From: Nereocystis luetkeana
Taxonomy: Eukaryota; Sar; Phaeophyceae; Laminariales; Laminariaceae
NCBI GenBank assembly: GCA_031213475.1
Contig: JARUPZ010000024.1
Location: forward strand, 372,001-436,000
Direction of reading: 5' to 3'
Length of the DNA stretch: 64,000 bases
The position numbers and the translations under genes were made by a program. This document shows, one piece after another, positions 10,901 through 62,311 of this stretch (position 1 is its first letter; every line of letters begins with the position of its first letter). Below the pieces are notes generated by a model. It was given only the letters and a program-made list of their open reading frames with translations. It was not told where the DNA came from and did no database searches.

Positions 10901-13900
10901 TCGTGTGTGGTGGCTGTACAGATTTGGGTAGTTTATCTAACGTCCCCGGGTGATGCCCCCCACCGTATTTTCAAACCCCAGACGTGCCATCAAAATGTGC
11001 GGTCCTCTCTATTCCCAGGGGGGGACAATAGCTCGAGTTCACGAAACCCGCTTTTGCCCGGTTCTCCAGAGTTTGGAGGTTTTTTTTTGTGTTGGTTGTA
11101 GTCGTCGTCGTGGCTGCTACTGTGGCAAGTATCACAGTGCTACTGTAGTGGGGTTGTTGTTCTCACATAAAATCATCGTCATAGGAATAGGGCTTGTCTG
11201 TGGTCAGAAGCAAGACTATTATAAGAGGAATCTGGGGTGGAAAAAAATATATTTAGCAAACAAACCAAAAGGTGGGCACATTGACCCATGGCCATAGGGC
11301 TCGTCTGTGGTCACGGAGAGGCTCGAGTTTTCCTGGAGTGAGAAAAAAACATACTGTTCGTATCGTAGTCGAATACGAAACGAGCAAAATTCTGTGCAAA
11401 TGGCAGGCGACCCGGAGAGTCTCCGAGCTGTGTACGGGAGCGTGGCTGGGATAGGCGCGAATGGGATGAGGCTGGCAGCGTCAGGGAGTTGGCCCGATGC
11501 ATACAGCAGATCTACGAGAAGGATGATATCAGGTACGAGGCTACGCGCATACCTTCAAATCTTCGGACGAAAGGACGGCTCTGGCGGTTGGTGTTTGTTG
11601 CGAAGTACCTAGTACCAGGTATAAGACTAGGGATCTCGGCAAGATGGTAGGGTACGGTGGTGAGCAAGGTGCTTAGGTGAAAGGTGTTGCGGTTTTGTCT
11701 TCGTCAGGGACACAACTCAGCCCAGACGTCGACCACAACTAACCTGGTACGTATGCAGATACGAGTATTCCCACAAAGAAGATTCCCAGAGCGCTACGTA
11801 CGTGTAGCCATGCAAGATTCGCATCGTACGAGTATTTTCCCAAAACGCTACGCGCAACCGCCGTAAAAGATTCGCAAACGGGTATGTACGTAAGGTTCGC
11901 AAACGGGTATGCACGTTCCTACGCGGTAGATATGCTACTCCGTCACAGTATGGTGGTAAGGCACTCCTGTCGTGCGTGTGTGTGGTGAGGTGATATGGCA
12001 TGGTGATATAATATGTTTGTGATCTTAGTTTATTGGCAATAATGTCGGTTTGACACGATGAGATGGTCACCATCGCACCCATGGTACATGATTATATTAT
12101 TTATTTTGCGACTACGTACGTACTTGAATTGTTTTCTTATTTTGTTAAATTAGTTCGTTACAACCCTGCAGTGCTGTTGCTGCCTGATATCATGCGTACG
12201 TGTCCAGTGTCCAGTGTTTTACTATACTTCATACTAGATAAAAACATGTTTTCTATCGTGGTCTTCTAGGAATAATTGAATACCAACGATAACCGTGGCC
12301 GTCATCCTGCAAGTTCAATTTGTACCGGTAATATCATGGGCACACTTGAAGTACTATATATAGCTATTACAGCAGTTGTATTAAATGCCTGGTAATTATA
12401 CTATTACGGGGGACCATAGTTAATACCTGGTAGGACCTATGGTGTTCATAAAAACCTATCTATTTAACCATTTTTAGTAACAATATTTGGTCCTATTAAC
12501 TATGGTCCCCCGTAATAATAGGTGGAAGTATAACATAGGAAAAAATTGTACTCCGAAAGTCCGGCCTGGTACAGTGGTATATACCATTACGGGGGACCAT
12601 ATTAAATACCTGGTAGGGCCTACGTTACATACAAAAACCTACGTGTTTCGCTATTTTTACTAACAATGTTTGGTCCTATTACCTATGGTCCCCCCGTAAT
12701 ATTATATGAATATTATAGAGCTGCGGATAGTAATTTTCCCCCAGTTGTCCCCCAGACGGGAGTGCACTCCTAAATGGCTCAAGTCACCAACTACTGTATT
12801 AATTATTATAGTCGGACTTCATGTGAAGAGGTGGCCGAGGTAAGGGCGAGGGTACGGGACGCAGGTGTATCTGGCAGCTGGGAAGCAGTGCTTGGCTTCT
12901 TCTTTTGTTGAGATTTTTTTGTTGATGGCGAGAGCTGCGGAGGTGCTCTGGTAGAGAAGCTAGAGGTAGGGGGGAGGGACTCGACACCCAGATATACTCG
13001 TCCCACCCCACGCCAAATACTCTCCTAAATTCCTCTCATCTGATGTACTCCTACAGAACTCTCCTGTGGCTACCGATCTTTCTTCTGCTAATATAAGAAC
13101 TTTTCATTTTATGGTAATTTCTCCGTTAGGGAACATTACTCTCGTCTAACAGGCTATCCGCCCTAGGGAACATTCCTAAAAGAACGTTACTCTTGGCTAA
13201 CGGAATAACCGCCGGTCGTCCTGAGACTACAAAACTGCACACTATTATCTATACCTATAGCCCATGAGTACTTCACTCATATCAAAATTGATAGTTAGCC
13301 GTTCCCCGGAGATGCCAACTATCCATCTTATTATGGGTTTCCATACTTACGGGAAGGATTGTTGAATGCGGGCTACGTTTCTTGTTTTGGGGGACAATTT
13401 GGCACAAGTGCTTGAAATATGACTGGTGTGTCCCCAAAACGGGACTGGAGTTCTGAAAGGGTTAAAAGTAATTTGCACGAGGATTGAAAAAAAAAGAATG
13501 TTTTGGGTCATGAGTGGTAGATTGCCCCAGGCAAAACATAAAAAATGCGAACACAATGTATGGCTATACAGGCGTCTATAGAATGCTGCGCAGGTACTGC
13601 TTTATCTCTTTTCATGCCCCCGCTTCGATAAGCTTCCGCTGATTCCTGAGGCATTTTCGTGAGACGTACGTAAATTGTCAATATCCTGGAGTCCGGGCAC
13701 CCCCCAGAGGCGGGACGGATATACTGCCAGCAGATATTTATAGAGCCGTACCGAACTGTGTACAATGGTTGACACGGGTTGCCTGATATGTTTTCTGTTG
13801 AAGGAGGGAAAGCAGCAGCTGAAAAGGGGTGACGCGTGAAGTACTAGAATTGCGGGGTCATACACCCCCAACTTCTAAGAAAAGAAGGTTATTCTTCGCA

Positions 13901-16900
13901 CTCGTGTCGTCAGTCCCAATAACATTTTATTTTTTTATTTTTTCATTTTTTTGCTCATCCCATTTATTATCTTCGCCCATCTTCTTCTCTCTCTCTCTCT
14001 CCTTCCAACTCGTAACTCAGATCCGGGGTCACATAGCAGGCTCTTCTATCCCCTTCCCGCTACGGTACGTGCCTTCGTAACATGCGAAACAAAAAGAAAA
14101 ATAAAAATAAAAAATGTGAATGTCTTGCCAGCAAGTCTGAAAACAATTTTTGTCAGGTTTGGCGCATGCGCGGGCACCTCCCGCGGACGTGGTTTCCCTA
14201 CCCCCCTTGGTTGGCTGAAACAGACAGGGGTTAACAACACTTTGTTGACTTCCGATTACTTGCCAATTCTTGGACCAGTACGGACATGCGTGGAGCCGCA
14301 CGCGAGCGTCGACCCGCCGCGGCGAAGCCCCTCTTGTAATAACCTCGCATATTTTTAGCTGATCGTCAATAAAAAAGGCGTGCAAGGGTGGCGCGGGGGG
14401 GGGGGGGGGTGGGGGGGGGGATGGCGTACTCATTTGTTGCTTGCCTTAGCCATTTGACCAGTGACCACGCATCCCTTTCGAGACGGAGCACCGTTCCTAC
14501 TCCTAATAGAGACACCTCCAACAATTGGGCGCTCAATACGTTGTTTCCACACTTCCTCTGTCTGATAAGTCTGTGCCGAATTGCGCGTGAATTCGTTTGG
14601 GTACTTACACGTTGACATTTTAACCTATGGTTCGGTGCGTTAGAAAGGCAAAACACATACTGGCACAAAGCCGACTAAAAAAAAAAATGTAAAATCGAAG
14701 ACCGTGTTACACACTAAGATTAGGTCGAAATATGCCCATTTTGGCCCTTTTTTGAGTTTTTTAGTTTGTTTTTTTTTTTAGAATTCTTGAGATAATTCGT
14801 GATTACCACCCCAAACCTACCCCACATACACTACACCGGGGGGAAAAAGCGACAGAGGGAGGGGACGTTGGAGAGGGTGTTAAAATACGACAAGGTGGCT
14901 TCAGAGAAGGCTTACGCGTGGTTGACATCGAGTCCCAGCGACAGCGAGGACGGCTAATCGAGTTTTTTCCTTTTTTTTCCCCCGACACCAACAGACACTT
15001 TTTTTACCCCGCAAGTGTCTTGGTTTTAGTGTGCCCCCCCCAAGTATATTGGTTTTAATGTGGAACCCCAAGTGTCTTAGTTTTAGTATGGGTTCACTAT
15101 TATACTGGTTTGAGTATGGGGGGACCCGACATGGATCGTTGAGTAGAGGGGGGTTGGGTTCGGGCCCTACTGTTGTTGTTTTTGCCCCGCAAGTGTCTTG
15201 GTTTTTAGTGTGGGACCCCTAAGTGTCTTGGTTTTAGTGTGGGGGTCACTATTGGACCCTCAAGTGTCTTGGTTTTAGTGTAGGGGTCACTATTATACTG
15301 GTTTCAGTATAGGGGACACGTTATGGATGGTTGAGTATAATAGGGGGGGTTAGCTTAAGGGTTGGGATAATTATTGTGTTTTTTGGGGAGGTTTAGGCTA
15401 AGTGCCCCACCCACCGCCCCCCTGGAAAGGGACAAAATATGGCCGTTTTTGGGCCGACTCAATGTTTTCCGGCCCTTCGGCCGCATAGTTTAAGCACAGG
15501 CTGAAAAAAAAAAAAATGGATTTCAACCCAAAAAACGCTCAAGATTTCGAAAAAATTAGCGCCGAAGACATCGGACACGGTTAAGAGGCCGTAAAATCAA
15601 TTCGGCACAGACTTATGAGACAGAGGAAGTATATTACGTACATAAAAAACTTTTTGCTAATCTTATCCCCTTCCTGTTTGGCCGCCTGTGGCCACCATCT
15701 ATCTCCTAGGATAGCGATCGTTTTCTCGCTGTTATCTAGTGTGTCAAACTCCTCCATGCCACATTCGTCTATTTCCCTCCTCTCCTCTTCTAACACATCC
15801 CGTTCCTCCTTGTACATTTCACATTCTCCTACTATGTGAGTTCTACTCTCTATTGCTTTGCCACACGGGCACATCTGTGTATCTATTTCCTCCTCCTCAC
15901 GGCTACTGGTATACCTCTTTCTGGCAGGTCCAGGTCACCTACACAAAAGCGCAGCTTTAGCGTTTTCGCGAAGTCCATTGGGCCGTGCAGATACGTTTTC
16001 ATTCCTGTTCCTTCCCTCAATCCCTCGTATATATCTAGGTGTTTTTTCCGATTCCACCTTGTTTCGTAACGCTAGCCTTTCCCTTCTTTCTATCCTTTCT
16101 TCTACTTCTTCTGCCTGTACTTCCCAATCTTCCCGGCAGACATCACCTCTTCTTGGTTTCCCCCTATGTATTTCCATACTTTCTCAACTAACTGCGCTAT
16201 CCCACCTTATTCCAGCTCGCCCTTTTGTTACTTTCTCCCGTACAGCTCTATCAACTATGGCCGGTAGCCTCTTTTTTGGCATGTTCCTTACTTTATATTG
16301 CCATTTCAACTTTTTCATATCCCTGTTTGTCTTGAGTGGGTGCATTCCCAGTTCTGCTATTAATACTGTATTACTAGTCGTACTTGAGCATGTTACGATT
16401 TTTTTTTGCTGCTGTCATCTGTACTGTTTCCAACTGTTTTACGAGTTTCGCATTCCCTTCATACTTCTCCTGCATATTCTAGCTTTGGTACTATCACATT
16501 CATCAGGATACATCTCTTAATCCTGGTGTCAAGGTGCGAGTCCGTTAGGATCGCATCCATCTTGCCTGTGTGCGCATTTACCCTTTCCTATTAGTTTTGC
16601 TATATATGTGTCTCAAGAGCAGTATTTTGACATCTCTACGCCAAGGTACGTATACTGGTCTACGATCGGCAATTCATCTTCTCCCCACTTCCAACTGAAA
16701 TTTATCGGGTTCACCGTATCTTCGTTACAAACAACTACTGCGCATGTCTTTACGTTCGCCGTCACCCTCCATTTCCTAGTGTATTCTAGCGCCGTCTCTA
16801 TTTGTTTCTGCAATCCTTCGGGTGTTTCTGATATCCCCACGAAGTCATCCACAAAATTCAATCCCGACTCCGTATCTTCCCCGACTTGCTGCTCCAACTG

Positions 16901-19900: not shown

Positions 19901-22900
19901 GCGAAGCGCCGTGGGGTGTCCGGCGAGTCGCATGAAGGGTGAGCTGTATCCTACCAAGAACCGCCTGTGAAAGCGGACTTGCATATGGATGACAGCTTCA
20001 ATGAGTTCAATTTAATTTCCGGTGTAGCCACTTCCAGAGACAGCAATGGGAGTACTGTGTAACTGCCTCTTGGGTGACTTCCCTTTAACACTACGTGATA
20101 CGATCATTCCCAATTGTGCGAAGTAAAGTTTTTTTCCCTCGCACAAATGATGTAACTCGATGACCAGCTGTGGGCGACCGCCAAAAAAAATGAAAAGAGA
20201 AAAAAACGGTACCCTGGTTGTCTAGTTCACGTAGTGAGCGACATGTTTTACAGTGTCGTTGCCAACCGACCCCAATCCAACCTATATATAATGGGGGGGA
20301 AGGCGATTTGGCTCGCTTCGCTCGCCTGATTCACGTCGGCATGTCGGATGGTCAACAGCCAACTTGCCGACTAGCGCCGGTTAGCTGGCTAACGGCCCAA
20401 AAATGTCGATTCGTGTTTAACGTTTATCGTGAAATCCTTTCGTCTTTTAATTTTTCAGAGCTGCACCATTTTTTTTCAAGGACGAAAATACCTGGAATTC
20501 GTGTAGGATAAAATGTCGCAGTGGCTGATGGGCTAACATTTTGCGGCCGAAATGAGATGTACCACTCTGATACGAACGTCCAATATCCCTGTTTCGACTC
20601 TGATGCGGACGGCACGTATCGGTATGAACATGGAGTATCATCCCGGAGTGGACTCTGATGTGAACATGGCCGTCAATATTATCCCCATTTGGAGTCTGAG
20701 GTGACTGTGAAAAGAGTGCTATATTTTCGGTCAGAGTGGGATACACGCGTTCTGTCAGTCGTAAACGCTGCTGTTTTTGCACGCTAGTCGCGCTTAGGGT
20801 GGATGTGTGTATGTGTGTTTTCTGTTTTCCTCGTCTGTGCCCGCAGCTGGTGCGTGCGTACGTGCGTGCGTACCTCTCTGGGCTGAACAGTTACGACGGA
20901 CACTGAGTGTGCAGAATGGTTTACTGTGAAGAACACATGCACCTTTGCGCACGCCCCCTTGGGACGGATGATACTCCCATTCCCACCTGATGATCTATTA
21001 ATAGACAGATTACATTCCCATTCCCTGTTGATGATCTAGACAGATGATCTTCCCATTCCCTCTTGATCATCTAGACAGATGATAGTCCCAGTCCCACGTC
21101 ATGATCTAGATAGGCATCACAAGGCAGATGTTCGCACGCACCTTTACGCACGCACCCTTGACCAGAGGATATCCTCATTCCCACTTGATGATCTAGGTAC
21201 GCATCTCAAGGTATGTATGTAGGATCTAGCTCGTGTTGCCGAGTGAGGTCCGCAAAATGGGCATGATCTACGTATTTTGCGCGTATTTTCTGGGCTGGAT
21301 CTGTACCGATCTGTACTGTGTACAGACCCTGCACAACGTATTATCATTTGCGGCGGGTAAGGAACTGCGTATATTCTCAGATGATCCACAGCTACAGATG
21401 ATGGGCTCTCCGTCGCGTGAAAGGCTTACTGCGAAGAACACACACACGCAGACCTTTTGTCACATTTGCGACCGCTGCCACCGCTTCGGCGACGGGCGCA
21501 GGGCAAAGGTGATGCAGGCGGCGGCGGGGGAGGGGGCGGGCCTGGAATTCGACAAGGACAACAGCATCGCGATGGCGTTCGTGGCTGCGGCCAGCAATCT
21601 CCGTAGCAGAGTCTTCCAGGTACTTTTTGGTATTTGCGTTTTTTTTTTTTTTTTGTGATCATTTTTTGTGGCGGCTCGCGATGAGGTATGATATGAGCTA
21701 CCAGGTACAATGTTACTATTAATAGGTGTGTTACTACAGTATGTACGAATAGCCAGGCGGATCAGCTCTTGCTTCCTTTTTTTTCTTCTTTTTTTTCGTA
21801 TGGTACAGATCCTATTCATATTTATAGTACAGGGTTTGCACCAGGAAGGCGAAAGTTTCGGCAGCAAACCTCACCCCCGTCTTACTATCTCTAGCCAAAC
21901 GGCTTCCGTGAAAATAAAAACGCCTCTTTTGTGTGGCTCCATTCATACAAAATCACCGTGTGAACCCTCCGCGATGTTGTTATAGAGGGGAAAGTTGACG
22001 ACAAAAAAGTGAAAGACGACTGCGGCAGCAACGGCCACTGCGCGAGCTGGAAATGGCACAATGGTTGGCGTCCGAGTTGCGATGGTTGAATGCATGGAGT
22101 CGCGCGGCAGGGGCACCTCGTTACACATCCTGTTGTACCCGTACTGCTCCTAGACGGCTGATAACATGACCCCAAAGCTACCAACCATTGCTTTCGTGGC
22201 TTTATTGGGGTTCCTATCGCACATGAGGGTGAACATGTTGAAAAACGCGCCTTTTGGCGACCGATGCAATGATCACGTTCGCGTTGCCAACCGTTTACGG
22301 GCATCGTGAGGGTGGGGGATCATGTTGCGCCCTGGCCGTGCACGACCCCTTGCGTCCAACCATTGTATCTCGGACACTGAATCTTGTAGCATGCCCCAAT
22401 CACCTTGACTATTACGGAGGACCATAGTAAATAGGACCAAATATTGTTCGTAAAACTAGGGAAATGTGTAGGATCTTGTTTCCGCTGTTAGGTTCTGTTT
22501 ACTAACTATGGTCCCCCGCAATAGTGGCCGTTGCTGCGATGGTGAGGTACCCCTGTCAAGCCTCTAGACGGTTTATAACATGAAAAGTATTTTGACATCT
22601 ACAGTACTGATTCAACATGCATATTAATAGCGGTACGCAAAGCACAGCATGCACTTCAATGTGCGCCTCTCTTTTTTTTTCGTGTGTGGCCAGATCCCAG
22701 TGCAGAGCCTATACGAGGCGAAGGGTACGGCGGGGAACATCATCCCCGCCATCGCCACCACCAACGCCATCATCGCGGGTTTGCAGGTGATATGGTGGGG
22801 TGTGGTGTGTCGCAGTGACGCGTTCGCTCCGTTGAAGTGCTCTTTTATTCGTGTGCGGTTAGGGGGACTATTGGCAGTGTTAATGACCACTCTGCCCGGG

Positions 22901-31735: not shown

Positions 31736-31775
31736 CTGTACCGCGAAACAATATGTAGGTAGGGCAAGGCACGGG

Positions 31776-34436: not shown

Positions 34437-34563
34437 ATACTTTCACGGGGGGCCATACATACCTGGTAGTAAATAGAACCTACGGTACACACACACAAAC
34501 CTATATATTTTCGTTTTTTTTACCAACAATATTTGGTCCTATTTACTATGGTCCCCCGTGATA
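34437..34563. mobile_element. A-family MITE 13, with a TACCTGGTA insert
   Basis: The left end TTTCACGGGGGGCCATA is followed by CATACCTGGTAGTAAATAG where the consensus has CCATAGTAAATAG (motif 34460-34468). The right end is CCCCCGTGATA. Confidence 0.9.
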
Positions 34564-40498: not shown

Positions 40499-42261
40499 CT
40501 CACATTAACTCACAATTCAATGCAGTCCGTGGTCGCAGGAAACTGGTATACCGTACCAGGTATGTACGATATGTATCGTAGAGGCGCTGGGATAAAGGAA
40601 CAGGGTACTGTTTTCTAGATGAGTTCCACCTTGCGCATGTGTACAATGGTTGTGTACGTATGTTGTTGGATATCGTATCGGGCGTTACGACATATCCAAC
40701 TATCAAAACATATAAATTCCGAACTTTCGATACATCGTGCCTGGTATGTATCTATCGCAGAGGTGCCGGGTGCCTGGACAAATGAACAGGGTTACGCTTT
40801 TTCAGATAAATCCCACCTTGCGCATGTGTACAATCGATAGGATTCGATATCTTACCGAATACTTCCACGTATCAAAAGCTGAAAAAAAGTGGAACATTCC
40901 AACATTCGATATATTTTAGGAATGTATCGTAGAGGTGATGGGACAACGGAACGGGGCACAGGTGTTTAGATCAATTCCACCTGGCACCATCGATGGTGTT
41001 GGATATCCTATCGAACGTTGCGATACATCAACATAAAAAACATACCAATAGAAAATTCGATAATTGGTGTGTAATGTGTATCGTACGTAGCAACACTGGA
41101 CGAAGGAACAGGGTACAGAGGATACTTCTGGTTTAATTCCACCTGATACATGTACAGTAGTACCGTATATGACGTACTGAAACATACAGTAGTGCCCTTC
41201 TCATAGATACGACGCCACTACAGCAAACCACCCCCGGTGGTAAATGTTGCAAAACTCGAATAAAACATGTCCATAATCACCTGGGCGCGTGAGCTTCATA
41301 CCACCCGGTGTGATAAGAGAAGAAAACACGCGATATAGGGGGTGAGCTTCATACCACCCGGTGTGATAAGAGAAGAAAACACGCGATTTAGCTATCCCCC
41401 GGGGTAGTTGTACTATTGATAGCGCTCACACGTCGGACTATCCACTACCGGTCTGCACAATATGTACGGCAGACGATCTAGATCCCATTTTGCCGTTGTG
41501 AAATGTTGTGCTGAAAGCGCTCAGCAAAGGGAGAAGATTATACATGGTGTCTAGTTTACTTTCACCTGTGGTGCTATCGATATATCGATAATGTTGGATA
41601 TCGTTCATCGAATGTTTCGATACATCAAACTTTCGAAAAATCCGATACGTAGGAAGCCCCTGTGTACTCCAGGAGAGAAATAGATCGGCAATGTTGGATA
41701 TCGTTTATCGAATGCTTCGATGGATCCAAATATCGAAAGTTCCGATATATATGACGCCCTTACCCTGTGTACTCCAGGAGAGGATCAAAGTGACATGGCA
41801 GTGTTGCACCACTGTTAGGGGTAGGGTAGTTTAGTTTTCTCTTCCGTGCGATCAAGGCAAAAAGAGGGCCTCCGTCGCTTCATCCGATCGACATCTCGGC
41901 CTGTTTCAGGCGAAGGTGTCAAGGTCATTACAACCAGGGTAAAGATGACTGTGATGGCAGCACATACCAGCTATATTTCGACATGTGCGCCTTCTTCGTT
42001 TTGTGTATGTGTTTTCATCCATATAGGTGGGAGGAAAGCGTCGCACCGGCCGTTTGTTCTTTTAAATGGTTTTAGGGGCGATCCTATACAGGGCTCTAGC
42101 AACTTTGGGTTAGAGTGAGGACAACAACAACAGCAACAACAGCAACAACAGCAACTCCAACAAGTACAACAACAGCAACAACAACAACAACAACACCCAC
42201 CACAACAACAACAACAGCAACACCCACCACAACAAGTACAACAACAATAACAACAACAACG

Positions 42262-48300: not shown

Positions 48301-51300
48301 GACCCTGGCAGTCCCCTCGGGGCGGATAGGTGTACTGACACTAAATCCTGGCACAACACCCATGCCAACGCTCCGAGCATGACTTATTCGCGCAATACAG
48401 CAGTAGATCAGTTTATCGCGCACGTCAAACTTGAATACTTGAGACTGATATGTAAGAACGTGTGTGTTTCTTCACATTTGACCGTTCATTCTCCCCGTCG
48501 ACATCCAGCACACCCAATTTCCTTGCCGGTTCTTCATCCTAGTCAAGAGAGAGAGATGCAAGCTCTGCGGTCACAAAACCACGACAGAGAGACGCTACAG
48601 GGTAATGCAGACGGAGGAGAGTAGGCAACGTAATGCCATTTGCCATCGTACTGGGATACGAAAAGACACATCACACACGCCAGCATTCCAACTTGTTCGA
48701 GATTTGAAAAAAAAAGAAAAGACGAAAAGAGAGCAATAATCAAAATAACGCAAAAAGAAAGAAATGTGTAAGAACGAGAACCACTCCTGACTGGAAAATG
48801 TAAGCAGCGTTTAGTCTCGAGAATAGTCTACTGTAGCACCTACGCGTTCCATGTGCTCCATTCAAACGTGGTAACTGACATTTTCAAAACACATGTGACG
48901 TCAGCTATCGATTGCGACATTGTTTCCACAAATGTTGGAAACGTGCTCCAGTGTCGTCCACCCATATTTTTCGGCTCTTGTGTTTCAAATGTGTAACGCT
49001 ACTTCGAGTATACCTGGTACACGACATCGCGATTTTCGCGATTTCTAATCATTTAACGGTAACGGCGCCGTACGTAAGCCGCCGGTTATATGTACGACAC
49101 CGCGCCACGTTCGCATCACACAGCACGAGGGGACAGTAATAGACTGCCCGGGGTGTTTTAGCATGGCCTACAGCAGTAGACCTATCTTCGAACTATTGCG
49201 GAAAACCCAAAAGGGTTGGATTTTGGGGATATGTGGTAAAAAATCACGAACGCCCCCAGAAAAGTAATGTCGATGCTTCGTGGTTCCTTGTGTACGCCAC
49301 CGGCGTCGCTTGTGTACGACATCGCCCCCACGGTTTTGTTTTTCGGCGACACTCTCCAGATGATCGCTTGGTTACAAAGTGTGAAGGTGTGTGTTGTCAT
49401 GCAGTAGGGCCAAAATGGCACCCATCATGGAAGCCAAAATGTGCACGCTAAAGCGACAGACGGGCACCCTCACCTAAGCTCTCCATGCTATTCATAACAG
49501 TACACTTTCAGCAAGTCAAAACCTCACCTGGAGCAAAACAGAAACGTTCAAGCCGGTGAAAAATCTCATGTATTGGGGGGTTCATAGGGATTTATCGAAA
49601 AATAATGAAGAACAAAAAAAAAACAAGCGATATTGGGTGGTCAGTTCCCCAGCGTCCTTAAGGAGCCCCCCCCCGGCTGTCAGAACTGTTGTACCCCAAA
49701 AATGCTATCCCTAACCCTGTCCTGAAGCAGATATTTAATCCTTTCACGACTGCAGTGCCGTTTTGCGGACAACTTACTTGGAATTTGACTGGTTTGTCTC
49801 GAGAACGGCACTGCAGTGCTAAAATCGTTGCAACTCTCTTGGGGGCTTAGGGTCATTGTTATCGGAGAGCTTTTTCGCTTTTCCCCGTAAGTTCCATGTT
49901 TTTTTCGGGCAATTTTTTAATCTTCCAGATTTTCCTGATTTTCTTCTTTTCCCAAATCCTGTACGTGAAATTTAACAAACCTGTTTTTTTTTTTTCGCTT
50001 CAGGAGAATTTCACGAATAGTCACGGAACACCTCCGTATCTTCATTCAAATCTCATCAAATTAATTCCAAACTTTTGAAAACTCTGGGGAAAAAACTCTC
50101 CGATAAAAATGAGCCTTACTCGAGAGGGGGAAATTGACGGCAAAAACCCACGTTGACGGAAACAGCGGCTGCTTGATTTGGGAGATGACAACAACGGTTG
50201 GTGTCCGAGATACAATGGTTGAAAGCAAGGAGTCGTACGGCACGGGCGAAACACGACCCTATCCGTGCTGCTTGCTGGGCGCTCACACTGCTCGTCGACG
50301 GTTGAATGGTTGACACCACCCAAAGCCACCAACCATTGTTTTCGTTGCTTTCTCTACACACCCGAAGGGGTGAATTGATGACTACAGTAGTAGATATGTA
50401 TGCGCTGCATGCGCAGCGGTGCATTGTAAACGGAAACAAATAGTTACGCCTATCTATGACAGTAAAACACACTACAAGCAGTACGTACAGTATTAATAGT
50501 ATAACGGGGGCAAAAACAGCGGTCGCTTTACACAACCAGCAATGCATACAGCAAGGTATCATCAAGTTCGTTCGTTCAGTCCGTGCTTACAGTACCTCGA
50601 CTTCTTTTAAGGCGACACGTAAATTCATCGACGGCTTTATAGGAACAGAACCTTAAGATCGACTGGACGAAACAACAAACACCACCAGACGCTCTCTGCG
50701 GAGACCCAACTTCAGGTTGACCTCCAAGGCAGGGGGGGCGCCAAAACCAACCAAAAGTTGGCGGCAAAGCATGTACGGAAACCTGGAGTCATGTTGGTTC
50801 ATTTGACCAAAAAAGGTACTTGATGAGGAAGTCCCACCTGCACCCGGGCCGACTGCGGTTTGTATGACAGTGATATTAATGTTAACCCCTTTAAAACCGC
50901 AGTCCCGATTTGGGGACAAACCAGTCAAATTTCAAGTAGTTTGTCCCCAAAACGGGACTGCAGTCCTAAAACGGTTAACATACTGCTGCAGTATTAATAG
51001 TAGCACTGAAGGAAGGGAGGAATCGGCGAGAGGGTCGAAGCAAGTCGCCCGGCTCGTGTATTGTAGTGCTACCAACTCTACTACTGTACGACAAGAATGG
51101 TACCGATGCTGTTTGCAAGGTGTTGAAACCCAGCTAGGCAGGATTTCAAGAAAAAAACCCGCAAGAGGATTCCAGGAGCTTTCGGTGTCGGACGGTAGCC
51201 TCTCGCCGATTGATGCCACCATTGGTGCGTTGTTTGCCTTCTTCCGCAGGCGCCCGAGGAGTGCATAAAAACTACTGTAGGGGGTCGGCAACTACAACAA

Positions 51301-54300
51301 GCGTTATATTTTTAGCCCAGGATATTGAGGACGACAACAGCCCACCTTCGTTCTGGACACAACCGTCCGGCCCCGAGTTCATCATTCCGTCCGACAATAT
51401 TCGGGCTTTACAAAGTTCAAACAACATCAGTGCTACGTAGTCGTAGCGGAAATAACATACACCGGTACAGCTTAACACTGCCAGGAGACATTTTCCTCTT
51501 CTGTACAGACCCCAACCTCTCCCTTCGCCCGACGGGATCTCTTAACCTCTCCATCCGGACGTGTACTGCCACTACGCCCCTCAGGATGGCCTACTCTCGC
51601 ACCGGAATCGTTTCCCCTCTCGCTAGCGTTCTCTAGAATTTCAAGAGGGTTCCCTCTTGCGCCCTTCTTCCTTGGCCTCTCTTTCTCGGGGGGAGGGGGG
51701 GCGGCGGCCCGGAAAATCTCGAGCCACTGGCACCCTCAGGTTGGTTCAACAGAAAAGGGCCGTAGCCGTCAACTTTCCCCTGTATCCCCAGCGCATGATC
51801 CAGCGATACAAAACCTCACCATGGTACGTACGTACCAGCTGTACGTGACATTTACTTTTCGACGTCGTGCTGGCGAAAACACGTCGTCGGTCGGACACTT
51901 TTTCCTGTCTCACCCTGCCCGTGTTGTTGGTTCGACCGTACGCACACCATTTCACACCATCGACACCATCCGGATTGTCTTCAAGCGTGGGTCCCCAGTA
52001 GTTCTCGTCGCTGTCTCCGTGTTGCACCCACCGCGGCATTGGCCTCACCCTTAACGATGTCGGCACATAGGAGACGCTCCATGGCAGGCCGGACCCGTTG
52101 TATACCCCGCCGCCACAACGCCTGGGCACACTCGAACCATTGAAGCTGCGATCAGAGGCCAGCTCCCTCGGGCTGTTCGTCTTGCCTATGAGGTTCACGA
52201 GCACCGCAAAGCAGTGACTTACACAGGCAAGGCCACGCCGCAGAAGCTTGAAAGCGGCCCGCCTCGTCGAGGCAAGCGGACGCATCCGTAGGGACGCCGT
52301 GAGGGGCATCCTGCGGTACAGCGGTGTCCCGACAGGCATCATGTACATGGAGCTTTCCCTCTCTAAGCAGTCCGACCCCCACGGTGCTTGGTACAGCGAT
52401 GGATCCGAAGTCCGCGAACGCTTGCGCCTGGTCCTCAAGCGATCGCGGAGTCCGGACCCCTAGTTGTACCAGGCACCGTGGAAGTCGAACTGCTGAGAGA
52501 GGAAGAATGGTTGATACATGACGCCTGTACTGACAGCGCTGCACCTTAGATTCGAAGCTACGCCCCTCACAGCGTTCCTGCTGCTCCGTCCGCTTGTCCT
52601 GATAAGGTGGGCCGCTATCGAATAGATCAGGAAGCCACCACTGCCCTCGGTAAAGAAAGGTGTCTCCCAGCTGCACTTCCATCCATCCTCGGGGTAAGCG
52701 ACCCTTAGCCCCTTAGGAGGCCCTCAGCGTAGGTATCCACCGACACGCCTTTCGCCAGCACCTTTTCCTCCGTCTGCACGACATGGGGGTCAGAATGCGG
52801 TCGTTGGCGGGGGGGGGTGACATGGCGAACGCCGAATGGCAGAACAAATAATGCCAAAACAACAAAAAACAACACACAACAAACAACAACACCGCACGTA
52901 TGCATGCTCCGATCCCGCACTGTGAATGCCACCTGTGCTGCTGTTGCTGCTGCTGCTGCGCGGGTTGGCCTTTCGTTTCTTGTGTACCAAATACCGGTAT
53001 GCCCCAAATCTGCTGTTTAATCTACTATTAATAGTATAGTATCAGTTTTTGCTGCTGGCGGGTGGTTTCTACTTTAAACTTGAGTAGATTTTGAGACTGC
53101 CGTATCGACACAGCAGTCTATTAATAGTGTACAGCAGTCCATGTGGCGTACACCGTTTATACCTACCTGGTACCTTTACAGGTGTATGCATAGCCTGTAG
53201 TATGATAGCGGGGTTCCTACAGCAGTAGTAATACTATACATGACAGTTCGTACGAACAGCAAACAGTAGTGCCCGTATGATAGTTCGTATGAACTGACGG
53301 AAGGTGTATAATCTCTGCTGTCAATGTTGCCACCGATAAGGGATATTGGCAGCAATTACTATGAAACGACGGTGTGGTATTACATGAAACGCACCATACA
53401 TTAAAATACAACAAATAAACCGAAAAGTTCAAATCAAAAAATGGAAAATACGACTTGATATGGTACTATTAATACCTGTAGCACTTACAGCAGCACATCA
53501 GGAACGTCCCATGAGTTGGTCTGGTGTTACGCAGCTTGCAAGTTTGAGTTTGAATCGTTCAATCGGTCCTACTCACAGCTGACGTATCTGTACAATCTTG
53601 AAAAGACAGGAATTGCGAATTCCTCTCTACAATTTTCTGGAGTATCGCCGCCGGACCGAATGTATCCCAACCTAACGTAAGGGCAGCACACTTCGAGTTC
53701 ATATTTGGAGGACAAGACAATAACGCCACGATAACCCAATCTCACGCACACACCTGAGACGGAATTGTTCACCCGAGGCTCGCCGTCCATGGGATCACGC
53801 TGCTTCAAAGCCCATCCTTGACCTTGGAAACCCCTGAGTATCCAACTTCGATACCAACAGTCTTCTCAAGCGCAGGCGATTCAGCGGCAAAAACGAGCAT
53901 AGGCCTGAGTGTGTCCAGGGCTCGGTGCGCAGGGTTTGCCGTGGTGCTCGACGATGATACTCGTAGTGATGCGCGTATCGTGGGTCGTGGGGCTTGCAGG
54001 CGTGTTGGGCGTATTTTTCCCAGGAGTTTGATGTGCTGTTCGCGGAGCCTCACCTACGACGGCTTTCCAAGAGGTTTTGAAGGATTGTTGAGAAGGGAAT
54101 TCCAACCCTGTTGACCCTCGCGCACACTGCTTGGTCTACTCAAGCACTTACTTCGAAGCGTTCGTACCCGCCGGCAGGCGCGCTTCAATGGGAGCCCCAA
54201 CCCATGCAGAGTCTCTCCGAAACCGCGCCCAGCTCCCCCCGGCCCAGCCTGATAGTCTTTTTCGTTTCCTATCTGCGTGGTGAATGGGTTCAGCTCCTCG

Positions 54301-56210
54301 TGTTGGCGAGTCGGGGGTACAGCGCAGAGGTATCCTCTTGACTCGATGAACACCGGCCGTCCAGAGTGTGCGAAGAATGCAAATAATCCACACGACACGC
54401 TCTACGCATGCCCGTTTTCGCTTCGCTATATATACGACGTACAGGAGCTTGCCCTCATTCGTAGACGATGACCATGCAAGCATAACCTTCGCAGTCCCCC
54501 GTGGAGGTTGCCGCCAAGTGCCACCCACCAAACTCGTCCAACACGGAACCTACCATCCAAGACACCAGCTATGATGTTCTGGCTGTCGACCACGCCGCAA
54601 GCAGCATCACCTCGAGAACTGCCCCGGTTCGGCATCGTGGTACCACTCTGGGAGGATATATAAGGATCGTTTACACATTAATATCAAGACAAAGCGGCTC
54701 CTATATTAACGCCCAGACTGATACCGAAAGCCCGACACCATGCCAGCACACACTTCCCAACAACCATTTGTCCATCTTGAGTGTGTGCTCATGAAACTTG
54801 GCGCGGTGTCGTATCCATACAATGACACCGGTGTCGTTTATAAGGAATCATGGCACCGGCCTGAATTTTCAGGGAGTGTGCGTGATTGGCCATATCTTCT
54901 CCACTTCCGGCCCGTTTGGGCTTCACCTAAGCTTCAATGATAGCTCTAGACCATGCTCACACACCCCGAGCAGTCACTTGCCCCTCCGCGCCGTGCGCCG
55001 CGAACGCGGCGGTGCGGTGTCGCATACAAGCAATTGCGACACCGGTGTCGTCTATACAGCAGTAGCAATACCGTATGCGTAATACGAGTACCAAGAAAAC
55101 TACTCTGTAGAACTGCAGCAAGCCAGGCTGACAATGAGTTTTGCAGGAAAACAAGAAATTACCTTACTAATATCCTAAACGTCCGGCAGATGACGACCTA
55201 CAGCAGTACATCATCTAGATCATCTACTCATGGTCATCACGCAGATAGATGTTCTTGCCCGTCTTGGTCAGGACGAGGGGCATGAACATGAACATGAACC
55301 CGAGGTGGTCGTTGGTCGTTGTGGTCGAATAGCCTGGCCATTATCGGGTAGGTGGGCTCAATAATCGGGTACCTCTTCGGGGGTAAGTAGCCAAAATCGG
55401 GTCTACCCGGCGCAAGAGTGGCCAGCATCGGTCGGGTGGCGGCCGGCGTTGACCAATGAGTTGGCGTCCTGGGGCCTTCGCGGTCACTGAAAAAAAAAGG
55501 TACCCGATTTTGGCCACAAAGGCATCGGGTATGCCCGATTTTGGCCACTGCTCTGGAAAGAAACATCCAGGTTTCGTTTTTCGCCCTTTTTCGGTATGTC
55601 TACGTATGGATCGTGATCTTTTGTCAAAAAGTCACGAATCGCGATTTTTTTTCGGTTCGTTTCGGTTTGACCTCATCCATCATCATCATGTAATGCAAAA
55701 TATTTAATTATTTGCGGAAGGATTATGTATGTCATGATGTATCAAGGATTCCAGACGATTTTTACTACGAACAACTGCTGTTTTGTAGCTGCAGCAGTGG
55801 TGTCCTCGTAACTCGTTCGTTCTCTGTACAGCGGCAAGGATTACAGCTTTTCTCCTCTTGAATTCAACTGCCCACCCGTGCTGATTCACCACGCTGCTGC
55901 TGCTGCTGCTGCTACTAACTGTACACTGGTGTACTGCTCCATCGCACACAAAAAGAAGCTGCTGAGCTGTAGAAGTCCATTACCTCAACACAGAGTCGGA
56001 AATACCCCGTAGCCCGTAAAGCCGTACAAGTACCTCAGTACCTGTGTGTACAGCCAGATGAAAGATAAAATGGACTACTCGCACCTCATCCTCAGGAACG
56101 TGCCAGTCAGAAGTCGTACAAGATTCCTCCGGCACTGTTCCCTCCCCCTTCGCCAGCGCAAGCAACGCGCAGCCGAGCAAGGGTACCGACCACATCAATG
56201 AGCGCACCAT
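37880..56210 (-). CDS. Secreted 2OG-Fe(II) dioxygenase, prolyl 4-hydroxylase-like, 6 exons
   Basis: Exons in transcript order: 56210-56085, 47286-47110, 44833-44663, 39747-39583, 38634-38563, 38062-37880. All have GT-AG sites and phase-0 junctions, and give 297 aa plus stop. Residues 1-21 look like a signal peptide, so an endomembrane or extracellular role is likely. Family landmarks in order: NQYQPP, NTYVNHW, CYGVRQYFRDSVLANHVDRV, THVISAIINVAQ, WPLYVRGHDG, and the C-terminal VIHGRPEVFKGDLFANIFVH. H196 and D198 (HVD) and H251 are the likely iron ligands, and K258 or R253 may contact 2-oxoglutarate. Such enzymes hydroxylate peptidyl proline (or similar residues) using O2 and 2-oxoglutarate. 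The substrate here is unknown. Confidence 0.88.
38262..38335. repeat. CAG triplet repeat in the dioxygenase intron
   Basis: AGCAGCAGCAGAAGCAGCAG ... CAGCAGCAGCAGCAGCAGCA. Confidence 0.93.
38339..38570 (-). repeat. Duplicated donor side of dioxygenase exon 5
   Basis: TACAGCTGAATGCTGAC...GTACTGACCTCCATGG (38499-38570, containing the true donor) is echoed at 38339-38424 as TACAGCTGAATGCTGAC...GTACTGGCCTCCACG. The copy starts with intron sequence and ends in exon sequence. Confidence 0.8.
38563..38634 (-). CDS. 2OG dioxygenase exon 5
   Basis: Acceptor GGGCTCAG above 38634, donor GTCAGT below 38563; 24 codons, phase 0: ENLDTAWPLYVRGHDG then VAKSITME. PWPLxIxGHDGxxxxxTMEPG is the usual segment between the two iron-binding motifs, and the PG is supplied by the next exon. 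Confidence 0.88.
38800..38930. repeat. CCATA pentamer repeat
   Basis: ACCATACCATACCATACC runs here and again at 39375-39445 and 39508-39575, flanking exon 4 and the 72-bp array. Confidence 0.92.
39094..39375. repeat. About 72-bp tandem repeat, four copies
   Basis: GGGGTGCTCGCTATGCAACT, TTAAGGAAGGATCTGAGATA and CGGAAAGGAAACAAACAAAA recur at about 39095, 39167, 39240 and 39312, nearly identical, so recently expanded. Confidence 0.97.
39480..39512 (-). repeat. Decayed copy of the dioxygenase exon 4 donor end
   Basis: GTCACCTGTGCAACGTTGAT GATAACGGAGA matches the true exon end at 39578-39612 (GTCACCTGTGCGACGTTGAT GATGGCGGAGA). It lies 70-100 bp into the intron among CCATA repeats. Confidence 0.9.
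39583..39747 (-). CDS. 2OG dioxygenase exon 4: HxD iron-binding strand
   Basis: Acceptor TTTATCTCAG above 39747, donor GTGACT below 39583; 55 codons, phase 0. Encodes RLYTDLAEVMEDWAG, CYGVRQYFRDSVLANHVDRV and THVISAIINVAQ. HVD is the HxD iron motif of the double-stranded beta helix. Both edges have decayed copies nearby: the acceptor side at 40.1-41.1 kb, the donor side at 39480-39512. Confidence 0.93.
40090..41130 (-). repeat. Six decayed copies of the dioxygenase exon 4 acceptor end
   Basis: GTAGAGGCGCTG(A/G)GA(C/T)AAAG (true junction at 39739-39758) recurs near 40096, 40307, 40578, 40757, 40929 and 41082. Copies are followed by AACAGGGTAC and TTCCACCT(G/T)G..C, so the unit includes the pyrimidine tract and upstream intron. 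Confidence 0.88.
41288..41397. repeat. 52-bp tandem duplication
   Basis: GTGAGCTTCATACCACCCGG TGTGATAAGAGAAGAAAACA occurs twice, at 41291 and 41343, nearly identical. Confidence 0.95.
42118..42347. repeat. CAA/CAG triplet array, about 230 bp
   Basis: CAACAACAACAACAACAACA with CAG and CCA interruptions. It produces poly-Thr, poly-Val and poly-Cys artefact frames. Confidence 0.97.
42348..44662. other. Dioxygenase intron 3, central part
   Basis: No supported gene. A GC-rich segment at 42720-43140 gives moderately long frames on both strands with no family I recognise. A GTT-triplet repeat followed by CTCACATTAACCCACAATTC and GCAGTCCGTGGTCGCAGGA at 43606-43675 matches 40463-40545. A further CAA tract lies at 44300-44340. 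Confidence 0.6.
43843..43920 (-). pseudogene. Decayed copy of dioxygenase exon 3
   Basis: GACCATGATGGTGTCGATTT TCCAATGGCTCACGTACG matches the exon 3 segment GACCATGATGGTGTTGACTT TCCAGTGGTTCACGTACG at 44687-44724, then CGTCCGCCG is shared. The copy has indels and no frame. Confidence 0.88.
44663..44833 (-). CDS. 2OG dioxygenase exon 3: NTYVNHW segment
   Basis: Acceptor TTTGTGCAG just above 44833, donor GTGAGT just below 44663; 57 codons, phase 0. Encodes LGYKKDKLNPDTYAYLMEWY, then AADNTYVNHWKVNTIMVN. NTYxNHW followed by MV is characteristic of this family. A diverged copy of the middle of this exon sits at about 43843-43920. Confidence 0.87.
45660..46215 (+). mobile_element. Repeat C, near full-length copy 3
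   Basis: G-run, TACTCGATAG, TATGACCATAGACCCTCGCA ... GTAGTGAGCGACATGTTTTA ... ATAGAGGGGG. Relative to the other full copies it has TACCACCGGGTA at 45984-45995 where they show a single TA. Confidence 0.92.
46790..47065 (+). repeat. GTAGATGATCTATCT tandem array
   Basis: Fifteen- to eighteen-base units GTAGATGAT(C/A)TATCT are repeated about fifteen times, followed by TAAGCCTACCTCGGTG, a copy of the exon 2 donor junction. Confidence 0.9.
47110..47286 (-). CDS. 2OG dioxygenase exon 2
   Basis: Acceptor TTTATCGCAG just above 47286, donor GTAAGC just below 47110; 59 codons, phase 0. Encodes FALCNVGSACRDD through ADMWPEETTT to RLRLNQYQPPLVPRYTE. The NQYQPP...YTE stretch precedes the catalytic core in related algal proteins. 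A near-copy of the donor junction lies 35 bp downstream, at 47066-47086. Confidence 0.82.
47320..47367 (+). repeat. (AGATC)n microsatellite
   Basis: About nine AGATC units just upstream (in transcript sense) of exon 2. Confidence 0.97.
47385..47830. repeat. Degenerate ACAAGATA/GATAAG purine-rich satellite
   Basis: Short units such as AAGATAAGATAAG, GCAGAACATAAC and CATGAGAAAACAT are repeated with heavy decay in dioxygenase intron 1. Minus-strand frames here (about 60-150 aa) are artefacts. Confidence 0.75.
48470..48730 (+). repeat. Repeat G copy 2
   Basis: CGACATCCAGCACACCCAAT, GGTTCTTCATCCTAGTCAAG and CATCGTACTGGGATACG parallel 6605-6860. Confidence 0.7.
49736..49832. mobile_element. B-family foldback MITE 7
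   Basis: CACGACTGCAGTGCCGTTTT ... GAGAACGGCACTGCAGTGCT. The CCC-to-TGCC change appears in both arms, so the palindrome is preserved. Confidence 0.92.
50128..50345 (+). repeat. Repeat H copy 2
   Basis: GGGAAATTGACGGCAAAAAC ... GGTTGGTGTCCGAGATACAA ... AAAGCCACCAACCATTGTTT. Confidence 0.8.
50881..50978. mobile_element. B-family foldback MITE 8
   Basis: GTTAACCCCTTTAAAACCGC ... TGCAGTCCTAAAACGGTTAA; the loop is in the opposite orientation to MITE 5. Confidence 0.95.
52313..52545. repeat. Imperfect inverted repeat, about 83-bp arms, 67-bp spacer
   Basis: 52313-52394 and 52462-52545 are diverged reverse complements, sharing CCTCTCT(A/C)AGCAGT.CGAC and CCACGGTGC.TGGTACA. The sequence has coding-like composition, so the arms may be two opposed copies of a decayed element gene. 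No family is recognised. Confidence 0.75.
54820..55060 (+). repeat. Two copies of a GACACCGGTGTC-centred repeat
   Basis: GCGGTGTCGTATCCATACAA TGACACCGGTGTCGT (about 54803-54837) and GCGGTGTCGCATACAAGCAA TTGCGACACCGGTGTCGT (about 55014-55051) share a perfect 12-bp palindrome. Confidence 0.8.
56085..56210 (-). CDS. 2OG dioxygenase exon 1: signal peptide
   Basis: The start codon is at 56208-56210, with no upstream in-frame ATG in this frame. MVRSLMWSVPLLGCALLALA is a typical signal peptide, followed by KGEGTVPEESCTTSDWHVPEDE. The donor GTGCGA lies just below 56085. An 8.8-kb intron follows. The N-terminal part is not conserved enough to rule out another short exon. Confidence 0.72.
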
Positions 56211-57334: not shown

Positions 57335-57432
57335 GTTAACCCCTTTAGAACCGCAGTCCCGTTTTGGGGACAAACCACTCAAATTTCAAGTAGTCTGTCC
57401 CCAAAACGGGACTGAGGTTCTAAAGGGGTTGA
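57335..57432. mobile_element. B-family foldback MITE 9
   Basis: GTTAACCCCTTTAGAACCGC ... CTGAGGTTCTAAAGGGGTTG. Confidence 0.96.
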
Positions 57433-57690: not shown

Positions 57691-57800
57691 TTAATCCTTT
57701 TACGAAGGACTGTCAGGACCGCAGTCCCGTTTTGGGGACAAACTGCTTGAAATTTGAGTACTTTGTCCCCACAACGGGACTGCAGTCTTGAAAGGGTTGA
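57691..57800. mobile_element. B-family foldback MITE 10
   Basis: TTAATCCTTTTACGAAGGAC, TGTCAGGACCGCAGTCCCG ... CGGGACTGCAGTCTTGAAAG; the left arm has about 15 extra bases. Confidence 0.92.
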
Positions 57801-58689
57801 GGTAATCGTCAGCTATTTTAGGCAATTTCCCCCCCCTCTGTACTACTAATAGAATCAAGTGATGTCCCAAAGGGTTCATATTATAATAGTAATAGTGCTA
57901 CAATCTGCTGCATATTGCTTGTACGTACACAAAAGATGTCGGGAGATGGTCTAGGGTCACGCTGCCAGTCTGTCAAGTCTGTCAAAGGCATTTCGATCCC
58001 TCGTAGAAAAAGCCTCATTTCTCTGTGCGGCAATCCCTATTGTTTTGTCTGCTGCTCGTTGAGCGGGGTTGCGGTATATACGAGTACCAGGTATATATAC
58101 GTTTTTGCCGTAAACATCGTGAACAATAACGAAAAAAGGAAAGCTCACTATTTTCAATACTATAGTAAGGGGTTTCCAGAAAAAAGGATTTTTTTTCCCG
58201 TGCCCCGGGGTTCAAGCCGTCAAGGCTGTCTGTCAAGGAATCAGCCTTGACGGCGTCAAACATACTGGTGAAACTGCCATGTCCTAATACCATATTTGCC
58301 GTGTCTGTGTGTCCGAAAAGCAGGGCGCATGGAGACCGGCGTTGCTTGAGATGCAGGGTGAGCACAGGACTATCGTCGATGGTGTTGGTGCTGGTGCTGG
58401 AGTTGGTGCTGGTACTACCGCTTTTGTGGTTTGTAACAACAATCGCTGCAGCTTGGAAGCGACAATGGCGGTAGGGCGAGGGTGGGGCGCGAACCTATCG
58501 CCACCAGCGGCTTGGAACCCTACCGGGACACCTACTGGTGAAACTTGGATGTCCGCGGGAAATGGGAACCGGCGACGAGGCTGGAGTTTCCCCTTTTCTT
58601 CAGGTAGCAATTCGATTTTTCAATGTTTTAGACCGCGCAGCATCCTCTTGAAGGTCGAATATTATTGTTGCTGTTCTTGACATCAGCAC

Positions 58690-58870: not shown

Positions 58871-59169
58871 TATTACGGGGGACCATAGCAAATAGAACCC
58901 ACGGTACACACAAAAGCCTACCAGGTACCAAGGGTATATAAAAAATATTTTTTTACTAATACGGGGGACCATAGTTAATGGGACCTATGGTATGCATAAA
59001 AACCTTTATATTTAACCATTTTTACTAACAAAAATTGGTCCTATTAACTATGGTCCCCCGTAATAACAATATTTGGTCCTATTTACTATGGCCCCCCGTA
59101 ATAGCCTATTAACTATGGTCCCCCGTAATACCAATATTTAGTCCTATTTACTATGGCCCCCCGTAATAG
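58871..59169. mobile_element. Nested A-family MITE complex
   Basis: An outer MITE (58871 to about 59104) is split in its TTTTACTAACAATATT core by an inner full MITE (about 58959-59066), with TA on both sides of the inner copy. A 65-bp piece (59040-59104), spanning the inner right end and the outer right end, is then tandemly duplicated at 59105-59169. The outer copy also carries TACCAGGTA and TACCAAGGGTA at 58919-58936. Confidence 0.9.
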
Positions 59170-59641: not shown

Positions 59642-59738
59642 TTGACCCTTTTAGCACTGCAGTCCCGTTTTGGGGAAGAACCGCTCAAATTCCTAGTAGT
59701 TTGTCCCCAAAACGGGGCTGCAGTCCTAAAACGGTTAA
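59642..59738. mobile_element. B-family foldback MITE 11
   Basis: GACCCTTTTAGCACTGCAGT ... CTGCAGTCCTAAAACGGTTA. Confidence 0.95.
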
Positions 59739-61681: not shown

Positions 61682-62038
61682 TATTACGGGGGACCATAGT
61701 TAATAGGACCAAATATTGTTAGTAAAAATGGTTAAATATATAGTTTTTTATGTATACCATAGGTCCTACTAACTATAGTCCCCCGTAATACGGGGGACCA
61801 TAGTTAATACCTGGTAGGACCAAATATTGTTAGTAAAAATTGTTAAATATATAGTTTTTTGTGTATACCATTTGTCCTATTAACTATTGTATTACGGGGG
61901 ACCATAGTTAATACTATGATCCCCCGTAATATTACGGGGGACCATAGTTAATAGGACCAAATATTGTTAGTAAAAATTGTTAAATATATAGTTTTTTGTG
62001 TATACCATTTGTCCTATTAACTATTGCCCCCCGTAATA
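61682..62038. mobile_element. A-family MITE cluster: three copies and a 42-bp mini-MITE
   Basis: Copy 61682-61790 is complete. A second (from 61788) shares its terminal bases, carries TACCTGGTA at 61808-61816 and breaks off at about 61888. A 42-bp element at 61890-61931 consists of two terminal repeats only. A third full copy spans 61930-62038. The second and third share private changes (AAAATTGTTAAATATATAGT, CCATTTGTCC), so one duplicated from the other. Confidence 0.93.
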
Positions 62039-62041
62039 TTA

Positions 62042-62192: not shown

Positions 62193-62311
62193 ATTACGGC
62201 GGGGACCGTAGTAAACAGCACCTACGGTACACACAAAAACCTATTTACTTACCAGGGGTACCTATTCTTTCTAGCAATATTTGGTCCTATTTACTGCGAT
62301 CCCCCGAAATA
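62192..62311. mobile_element. A-family MITE 20, with a TACCAGGGGTA insert
   Basis: TATTACGGCGGGGACCGTAG ... GATCCCCCGAAATA, with TACCAGGGGTA at 62250-62260 interrupting the TTTACCTATT segment. Confidence 0.92.

Follow-up and report, generated by a model that had tools for sequence, protein, structure and literature searches.

TA-bounded CCWGG insertions in the genome of the brown alga Nereocystis luetkeana and a candidate transposable element for their origin

Interrupted A-MITE copies

We describe a 64,000-nucleotide stretch of the genome of the brown alga Nereocystis luetkeana (GenBank assembly GCA_031213475.1, contig JARUPZ010000024.1, positions 372,001 to 436,000 of the forward strand), referred to as the window, and a class of short insertions of the form TACCWGGTA that is found in it and throughout the assembly. 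The window contains ~25 copies, identified by alignment, of a miniature inverted-repeat transposable element (MITE) designated A-MITE, which is ~105 bp long with the terminal inverted repeat (TIR) TTACGGGGGACCATAGTTAATAGGACC and a TA duplication, and several copies are interrupted at a TA by CC..GG and a second TA. TACCWGGTA is probably the main excision scar of C-MITE, an 83-bp cut-and-paste element that inserts at TA (see below).

A-MITE copies have a median divergence of 9% from their consensus, and the A-MITE 12-mer GTTAATAGGACC, which may occur at both ends of one copy, has 27,235 matches genome-wide. Inserts of the CC..GG class are present at several different TAs in 12 of 59 A-MITE copies from the window and from additional loci (numbered with the prefix L); eight of the 12 are in the window and one holds two inserts in a row (Table 1). 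Loci L001-L008 were retrieved via an empty A-MITE end and are thus biased against an insert at that end. An earlier note on the window, made without database searches, had listed eight interruptions of A-MITE copies, and all were found in place (12424, 12607, 26188, 34460, 58919, 58926, 61808 and 62250), although the phenomenon is genome-wide and 24 of the 29 TACCWGGTA sites in the window lie outside A-MITEs. The copy at 12587 is not sister to that at 12404 in a tree with weak supports. Two A-MITE copies (window 34456-34460 and L010:9601-9713) have CATA added beside the first TIR TA, which may mark a subfamily or be a CA scar left by another element.

Insertion at TA and variation among the inserts

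Alignments and pairs of empty and filled copies show that CC..GG plus TA arises by insertion at a pre-existing TA with duplication of the TA, as the earlier note had claimed. Discounting the 7 bp of the scar, 93 bp of the 61788 and 61932 A-MITEs are identical, and 471 A-MITE ends genome-wide read CATAGTTAATACCWGGTAGGACC, with a CCWGG plus TA insert (reversed control, 0). The reverse-transcriptase open reading frame (ORF) of L021 is uninterrupted (1004 open codons, RVT_1), and its counterpart in L016, a copy of a long interspersed nuclear element (LINE), holds an inserted TACCTGG with a 4-bp repeat.

The length of the insert varies, again as first reported, and within A-MITEs the forms CC, CCA, CCAG, CCATG, CCTTG, CCWGG, CCATGG, CCTTGG/CCAAGG, CCAGGG, CCAAGGG and CCAGGGG are all represented. 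This constancy of the outer CC and GG with a variable middle is as expected from rejoining two like cut ends. In a 264-kb sample (the window and L009-L028) CCWGG dominates with 89 sites; CCAGGG is present 6 times (0.6 expected), CCGG 9 times (3.3 expected), CCATGG once (0.6 expected) and CCA 81 times (41.1 expected). The CCA count is partly microsatellite, with the units at 38801-38890 mimicking 3-bp scars, and TACCATA was therefore not scored as a scar outside A-MITEs. TACAGTA is also in weak excess in this sample (83 versus 52.4 expected) and could represent scars of another TA element.

The A-MITE pattern CATAGTTAATACCWH has 45 matches genome-wide (control, 4). Among the first 20, 12 have CC-type inserts (CCATGG 4, CCTTGG 2, CC 2, CCTTG 2, CCA 1 and CCATG 1) and 8 are A-MITE deletions or rearrangements, with no element present; two of the four CCATGG cases are near-identical copies (L046 and L047). 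A second pattern, AGTTAATACCWGGV, is noisy (73 matches versus 35 for the reversed control), and of eight loci read four are in A-MITEs and none has an element. Locus L034, which overlaps L033, was dropped from the variant listing, the scan for TACC-ended inverted repeats, the C-MITE comparison and the C-MITE end search; L002 and L006, which overlap L001 and L005, were dropped from most counts.

Abundance in the window and the genome

The 29 TACCWGGTA sites in the window compare with a mean of 0.53 and a maximum of 3 in 100 dinucleotide shuffles, and with 0.77 expected under an order-2 Markov model. The centre base is almost always A or T: TACCSGGTA is absent from the window, and the 264-kb sample contains 2 such sites versus 89 of TACCWGGTA. 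Five of the 29 window sites lie inside A-MITEs, close to the proportion of TA dinucleotides found there (492 of 3929, padded A-MITE ranges). Twenty 10-kb stretches from 20 other contigs (200 kb) contain 60 sites versus 2.1 expected, and the whole assembly (465,085,209 bases in 1987 contigs) contains 182,395, or about one per 2.5 kb, versus 1,744 for a reversed-pattern control. In the sample these 7-bp insertions occupy ~0.6% of TA dinucleotides (89 of 15,956). None of the 9-mers lies inside the three long ORFs examined, which are too few for any statement on selection.

Target preference and age

The target analysis covers 81 of 101 sites, after removal of those close to a sequence end and those within 14 bp of another CCWGG, and the background against which they were compared contains TAC-type simple repeats. 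Reading outward from the TA of the site, T is first in 71 of 162 flanks (43.9 expected), and TA begins at place 3 in 38 (13.0 expected) and at place 6 in 44 (11.0 expected). A TA 7 bp away is thus favored, and the preference is symmetric around the site. The 57 insertion flanks of A-MITE itself show a different preference, and A-MITE was rejected as the source of the scars, both for its flanks and for its ends, which read TTACGGGGG. The A-MITE end TA-GTTAA-TA-GGACC-TA fits the target preference of the scar sites.

Seven pairs among the 89 sites are exactly 7 bp apart and two are 14 bp apart, with ~0.5 such pairs expected by our own arithmetic from 15,956 TAs. A scar itself supplies a TA 7 bp away, and this may account for the tandem pairs. 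One-mismatch versions of TACCWGGTA number 95, versus 38 with a G/C centre, and the excess over the 89 perfect sites suggests a scar divergence of ~7% per base, an estimate that is biased to young sites.

C-MITE, a candidate source element

C-MITE, an inverted-repeat element, measures 83 bp from one TA to the other, and its ends are CCA(C/G)TC (CCACTC or CCAGTC). All 25 TACC-ended inverted-repeat pairs in 282,072 bases are A-MITE pieces, paired scars, simple repeats, other repeats, or two C-MITEs, the latter being 83-bp elements at L003:405-487 and L019:7423-7505 with ends TACCACTCYGT. Four further A-MITE sites of the CATAGTTAATACCWH type were picked for reading CCAC, and two of them (L066 and L067) hold a whole 83-bp C-MITE, TACCACTC...AGACTGGTA or ...CTGACTGGTA, beyond which the A-MITE sequence continues. 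The element thus occupies the exact A-MITE TA that carries 471 scars. A third site (L065) reads TACCACTGGTA and is scar-like. One C-MITE end is CCAG in L066, L067 and L026; in L011 a C-MITE end directly abuts a TACCAGGTA scar. The copy in L033 is 82 bp long.

The earlier note had proposed that the inserts are excision footprints of a second TA-targeting transposon, which these two filled sites support; the termini are CCA(C/G)T and not CCC(A/T) as it supposed. It also took intact copies to be apparently absent from the window, and the copies there are indeed degraded, yet the element is present (54641-54723 and 22885-23261). Searched against 264 kb, a profile of six C-MITE copies gives 13 matches with E of 0.01 or lower and none in a reversed-sequence control; in some cases a single copy accounts for two matches, and two of the 13 (L019 and window 54641) were among the copies used to build the profile. 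An 18-base C-MITE end, TACCACTCTGTYCGGAAA, is present 222 times genome-wide (control, 0). L045 and later short loci were left out of the end-model search. From its TA insertion and inverted ends C-MITE is likely a short Tc1/mariner-like element. Among the DDE_1 loci inspected for a partner transposase, L043 holds one weak candidate, with 13 of 30 matches, which was set aside.

A larger repeat with a C-MITE-like core occurs in C1 and C2 (loci L069-L071 and L073-L085), with flanks reading gtacc TACC...GGTA cggtag. Seven C-MITE ends lie on one strand of C8 (5902231-6074335) at ~27-31 kb spacing, perhaps as a large tandem array.

Table 1. Coordinates of repeats and scars in the window.
Coordinates	Strand	Feature	Basis
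12404..12515	+	A-MITE copy, left-TIR TA interrupted	alignment
12424..12432	.	TACCTGGTA scar inside A-MITE	sequence match + alignment
12587..12699	+	A-MITE copy, interrupted at same TA as 12404 copy	alignment
12607..12615	.	TACCTGGTA scar inside A-MITE	sequence match + alignment
26138..26254	+	A-MITE copy, interruption in middle	alignment
26188..26197	.	TACCAGGGTA, 6-bp variant insert	sequence match + alignment
27413..27531	+	A-MITE copy with CCA+TA insert	alignment
27469..27475	.	TACCATA, 3-bp variant, not listed in the earlier note	alignment; coordinates by hand count
34442..34561	+	A-MITE copy, interruption near left end	alignment
34460..34468	.	TACCTGGTA scar beside extra CATA	sequence match + alignment
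58873..58958	+	A-MITE copy, two consecutive scars, then cut off by another A-MITE	alignment
58919..58927	.	TACCAGGTA, first of two abutting scars	sequence match + alignment
58926..58936	.	TACCAAGGGTA, second of two abutting scars	sequence match + alignment
61788..61890	-	A-MITE copy, filled member of 61788/61932 pair	pairwise comparison
61808..61816	.	TACCTGGTA scar, same insert as 12424, A-MITE in other orientation	sequence match
61932..62036	-	A-MITE copy, empty sister of 61788 copy	tree + pairwise comparison
62194..62309	+	A-MITE copy, interruption right of centre	alignment
62250..62260	.	TACCAGGGGTA, 7-bp variant insert	sequence match + alignment
54641..54723	.	Degraded C-MITE copy, 83 bp, TACCACTCTG...CAGACTGATA	profile E 1.1e-15 (copy itself in profile)
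22885..23261	.	Two facing C-MITE ends 377 bp apart, GACCACTCTG...CAGAGTGGCA, degraded or interrupted copy	end model + profile
42444..42508	.	Partial C-MITE match	profile E 2.2e-4
20718..20741	.	Possible C-MITE end	end model E 4.9e-4 (sequence in model); profile E 0.072
299..314	.	Tandem TACCAGGTACCTGGTA, outside A-MITEs	motif match
526..534	.	TACCTGGTA in paralogue of 263-356; TACCAGT precedes in 263-356	motif match + repeat comparison
1099..1128	.	Three TACCAGGTA within 30 bp	motif match
5928..5936	.	TACCTGGTA	motif match
11613..11621	.	TACCAGGTA	motif match
21699..21707	.	TACCAGGTA	motif match
27268..27276	.	TACCAGGTA	motif match
27396..27404	.	TACCTGGTA, just beyond an A-MITE	motif match
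27988..27996	.	TACCTGGTA	motif match
28933..28941	.	TACCTGGTA	motif match
35539..35547	.	TACCTGGTA	motif match
35771..35779	.	TACCAGGTA	motif match
35969..35977	.	TACCTGGTA	motif match
38077..38085	.	TACCAGGTA	motif match
38801..38809	.	TACCTGGTA adjoining TACCA-repeat microsatellite (38801-38890)	motif match
40554..40562	.	TACCAGGTA	motif match
47962..47970	.	TACCAGGTA, then CCAGGCA	motif match
48071..48079	.	TACCAGGTA	motif match
49011..49019	.	TACCTGGTA	motif match
53164..53172	.	TACCTGGTA	motif match
58085..58093	.	TACCAGGTA	motif match
19749-20299, 28027-28318, 28323-28863, 29608-29871, 31773-31930, 37038-37214, 45673-46194		Copies of several-hundred-bp dispersed repeat	

Proposed excision model and alternative origins

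In the model that we favor, C-MITE would insert at TA and duplicate it, with inverted ends beginning CCA, and on excision one strand would be cut a few bases inside each end to leave a 3' overhang starting CCA on each flank. Joining of the overhangs with a one-base overlap, A opposite A, and repair to either base would yield TA-CC(A/T)GG-TA. Joining without overlap would give CCATGG, loss of one side CCA, trimming CC, and added bases CCAGGG and similar forms. The stagger may be 3 nt (CCA) or 4 nt (CCAG); CCAG overhangs at both ends would give the same CC(A/T)GG, with C:G and G:C pairs flanking the A:A mismatch. Although insertion at TA, the palindromic W-centred scar with its variants, the symmetric target preference, the genome-wide scale and the whole element at the scar TA in two copies are all observed directly, we infer that C-MITE made most of the scars, as we do the stagger, the repair path and the involvement of a transposase.

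Several observations weigh against this model. The main scar of 5 bp exceeds the published Tc1/mariner-type range of 0-4 bp, which is usual and not strictly defining. CCA overhangs would overlap only by a mismatched A:A, so that the dominance of CCWGG (89 versus 1 CCATGG) is not well explained. C-MITE copies are diverged (L066 and L067 agree at 72 of 83 places, and L003 and L019 align at 68%), whereas most scars look younger. Of the 222 exact C-MITE ends, the first 20 include 16 that belong to a single larger dispersed repeat whose flanks are shared, and the count therefore overstates independent insertions. Profile searches tied no transposase to C-MITE, with no matches for DDE_3 (PF13358) and 28 for DDE_1 (PF03184), eight loci of which were inspected and had no convincing TA-flanked inverted ends. 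The CATAGTTAATACCWH pattern leaves out CCWGG-type and other starts, and the A-MITE-type sites that were read total 28 (4 + 20 + 4). Finally, a hand count at one A-MITE TA, covering the first 100 of the 471 ends, gives 70 with T and 30 with A as the centre base, so that some of these ends may have been inherited, or the repair itself may be biased.

The strongest alternative, and still a rather unlikely one, is that the scars derive mostly from another TA element with CCAGG-type ends, lost or unsampled, to which C-MITE is a relative or with which it merely shares the CCA start. With CCAGG ends, four of the five overhang bases would pair, which would explain the dominance of CCWGG, and the divergence of C-MITE copies also fits. 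A five-base stagger on such ends is less favored because C-MITE ends read CCAC and CCAG, then T. Moreover, none of the 25 inverted-repeat pairs in 282 kb is TACCAGG- or TACCTGG-ended beyond paired scars, and it is C-MITE that lies at the exact scar TA in L066 and L067.

It is very improbable that interrupted A-MITEs simply inherited a few old inserts by amplification, the other sites being instances of some widespread motif, for example a binding site. The 70:30 centre-base bias and the CCATGG shared by L046 and L047 would agree with this, and part of the A-MITE scars may indeed be inherited through A-MITE amplification; however, most window sites are outside A-MITEs and one insertion is in a LINE copy (L016). 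Descent from one interrupted MITE, or an insert ancestral to the MITE, would have undone the earlier note, and neither holds: the several TAs, differing lengths, many non-A-MITE loci and empty copies show that there was no single interrupted ancestor and that the insert is not ancestral.

Two further explanations are scarcely credible. Programmed elimination, in which the assembly is a processed genome with TA-bounded germline elements removed at ~180,000 places and a scar left each time, would account for very many uniform scars, and Paramecium elements are described as typically having TA ends (PMC9942806); however, the one assembly gives no sign of two genomes in one organism, C-MITE copies persist in it, and mutated scars exist. 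The finding of C-MITE makes excision from some TA element more credible and programmed removal less so. A 7-bp unit spreading alone, by templated or sequence-specific filling at TA breaks, would suit the high uniformity and the seven pairs at spacing 7, but the length variants keep the outer CC and GG, the target preference is symmetric, and whole elements with CCA ends occur at the same TA. Slippage as a sole cause is countered by the centre base, which differs in 3 of 8 adjoining pairs among the first 100 places listed (hand count).

It is an even call whether C-MITE has a life dominated by excision, with scars outnumbering recognisable copies several-fold (89 versus 13 in 264 kb), the element nearly always leaving, and each scar improving the neighboring TA as a target such that scars pile up in tandem.

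Other repeats and genes

Another MITE family, palindromic and ~95 bp long, has ends resembling TTAACCCTTTTAG and is present at 8565-8656, 26744-26840, 34637-34728, 49735-49824, 50881-50978, 57336-57430, 57715-57798 and 59642-59738; the TTAA at both termini of several copies suggests that it is of the piggyBac type. A further family of dispersed repeats, several hundred bp in length, occurs in both orientations, with some copies adjoining runs of C (Table 1). Non-LTR retrotransposon remains lie on the minus strand at 17243-17872 and 18409-19278, with an endonuclease-like ORF (PF03372, below cut-off) and a second ORF that is reverse-transcriptase-like by eye with no Pfam match. Locus L020 contains two ORFs with TIG and ephrin-receptor-like domains.

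Comparison with known systems

If the scars are excision footprints, the genome keeps a dense record of past locations of the element, from which leaving versus staying, target choice and repair outcomes can be measured over evolutionary time. The scars are also a major source of small indels that could easily be missed, including one that interrupts a LINE copy. TACCWGGTA was not found in the open-access literature, and searches there on footprints in connection with mariner, brown algae or accumulation across genomes gave no match.

A close parallel in form is Sleeping Beauty, with the footprint TAC(A/T)GTA, which likewise keeps the TA duplication and has terminal bases between two TAs as a palindrome with a W centre; here, in contrast, the core is CCWGG, 5 bp long, with ~180,000 scars in one genome. 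The ends of Mos1 mariner begin CCA, and such a start could yield the CCA and CCATGG scars if the stagger were 3 bases, but C-MITE is an 83-bp MITE without recognised coding sequence and its main scar would be CCWGG. Mariner 5' breaks are placed two or three bases inside the element (PMC2642840). Tc1/mariner excision leaves 3' overhangs inside the element and end joining makes the footprints, that of Sleeping Beauty being given as CAG (PMC8151067). Footprints are reported as 2-4 bp for Tc1/mariner in general and 0-3 bp for ZB (PMC7913693), and as 0-4 bp for Passer (PMC9976928); these are variable short TA scars as here, but the main scar here is 5 bp.

Among brown algae, an account of Ectocarpus transposons describes 17 Mariner-Tc1 families comprising almost 12,000 copies, most of them non-autonomous, and the accessible portion of its text has no uses of the words footprint, excision or MITE (PMC12477816). 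Stowaway/Osmar5 elements left historical scars at one gene locus, with 1-4 bp TIR fragments inside the TA duplication (PMC1925063). They are alike in being short non-autonomous TA elements whose scars hold TIR fragments within the duplication, and unlike in their end sequences and in the single locus concerned. In the sources consulted, work on excision scars covers single loci or plasmid assays, whereas in N. luetkeana one scar type is countable genome-wide and an element that fits it is still present.

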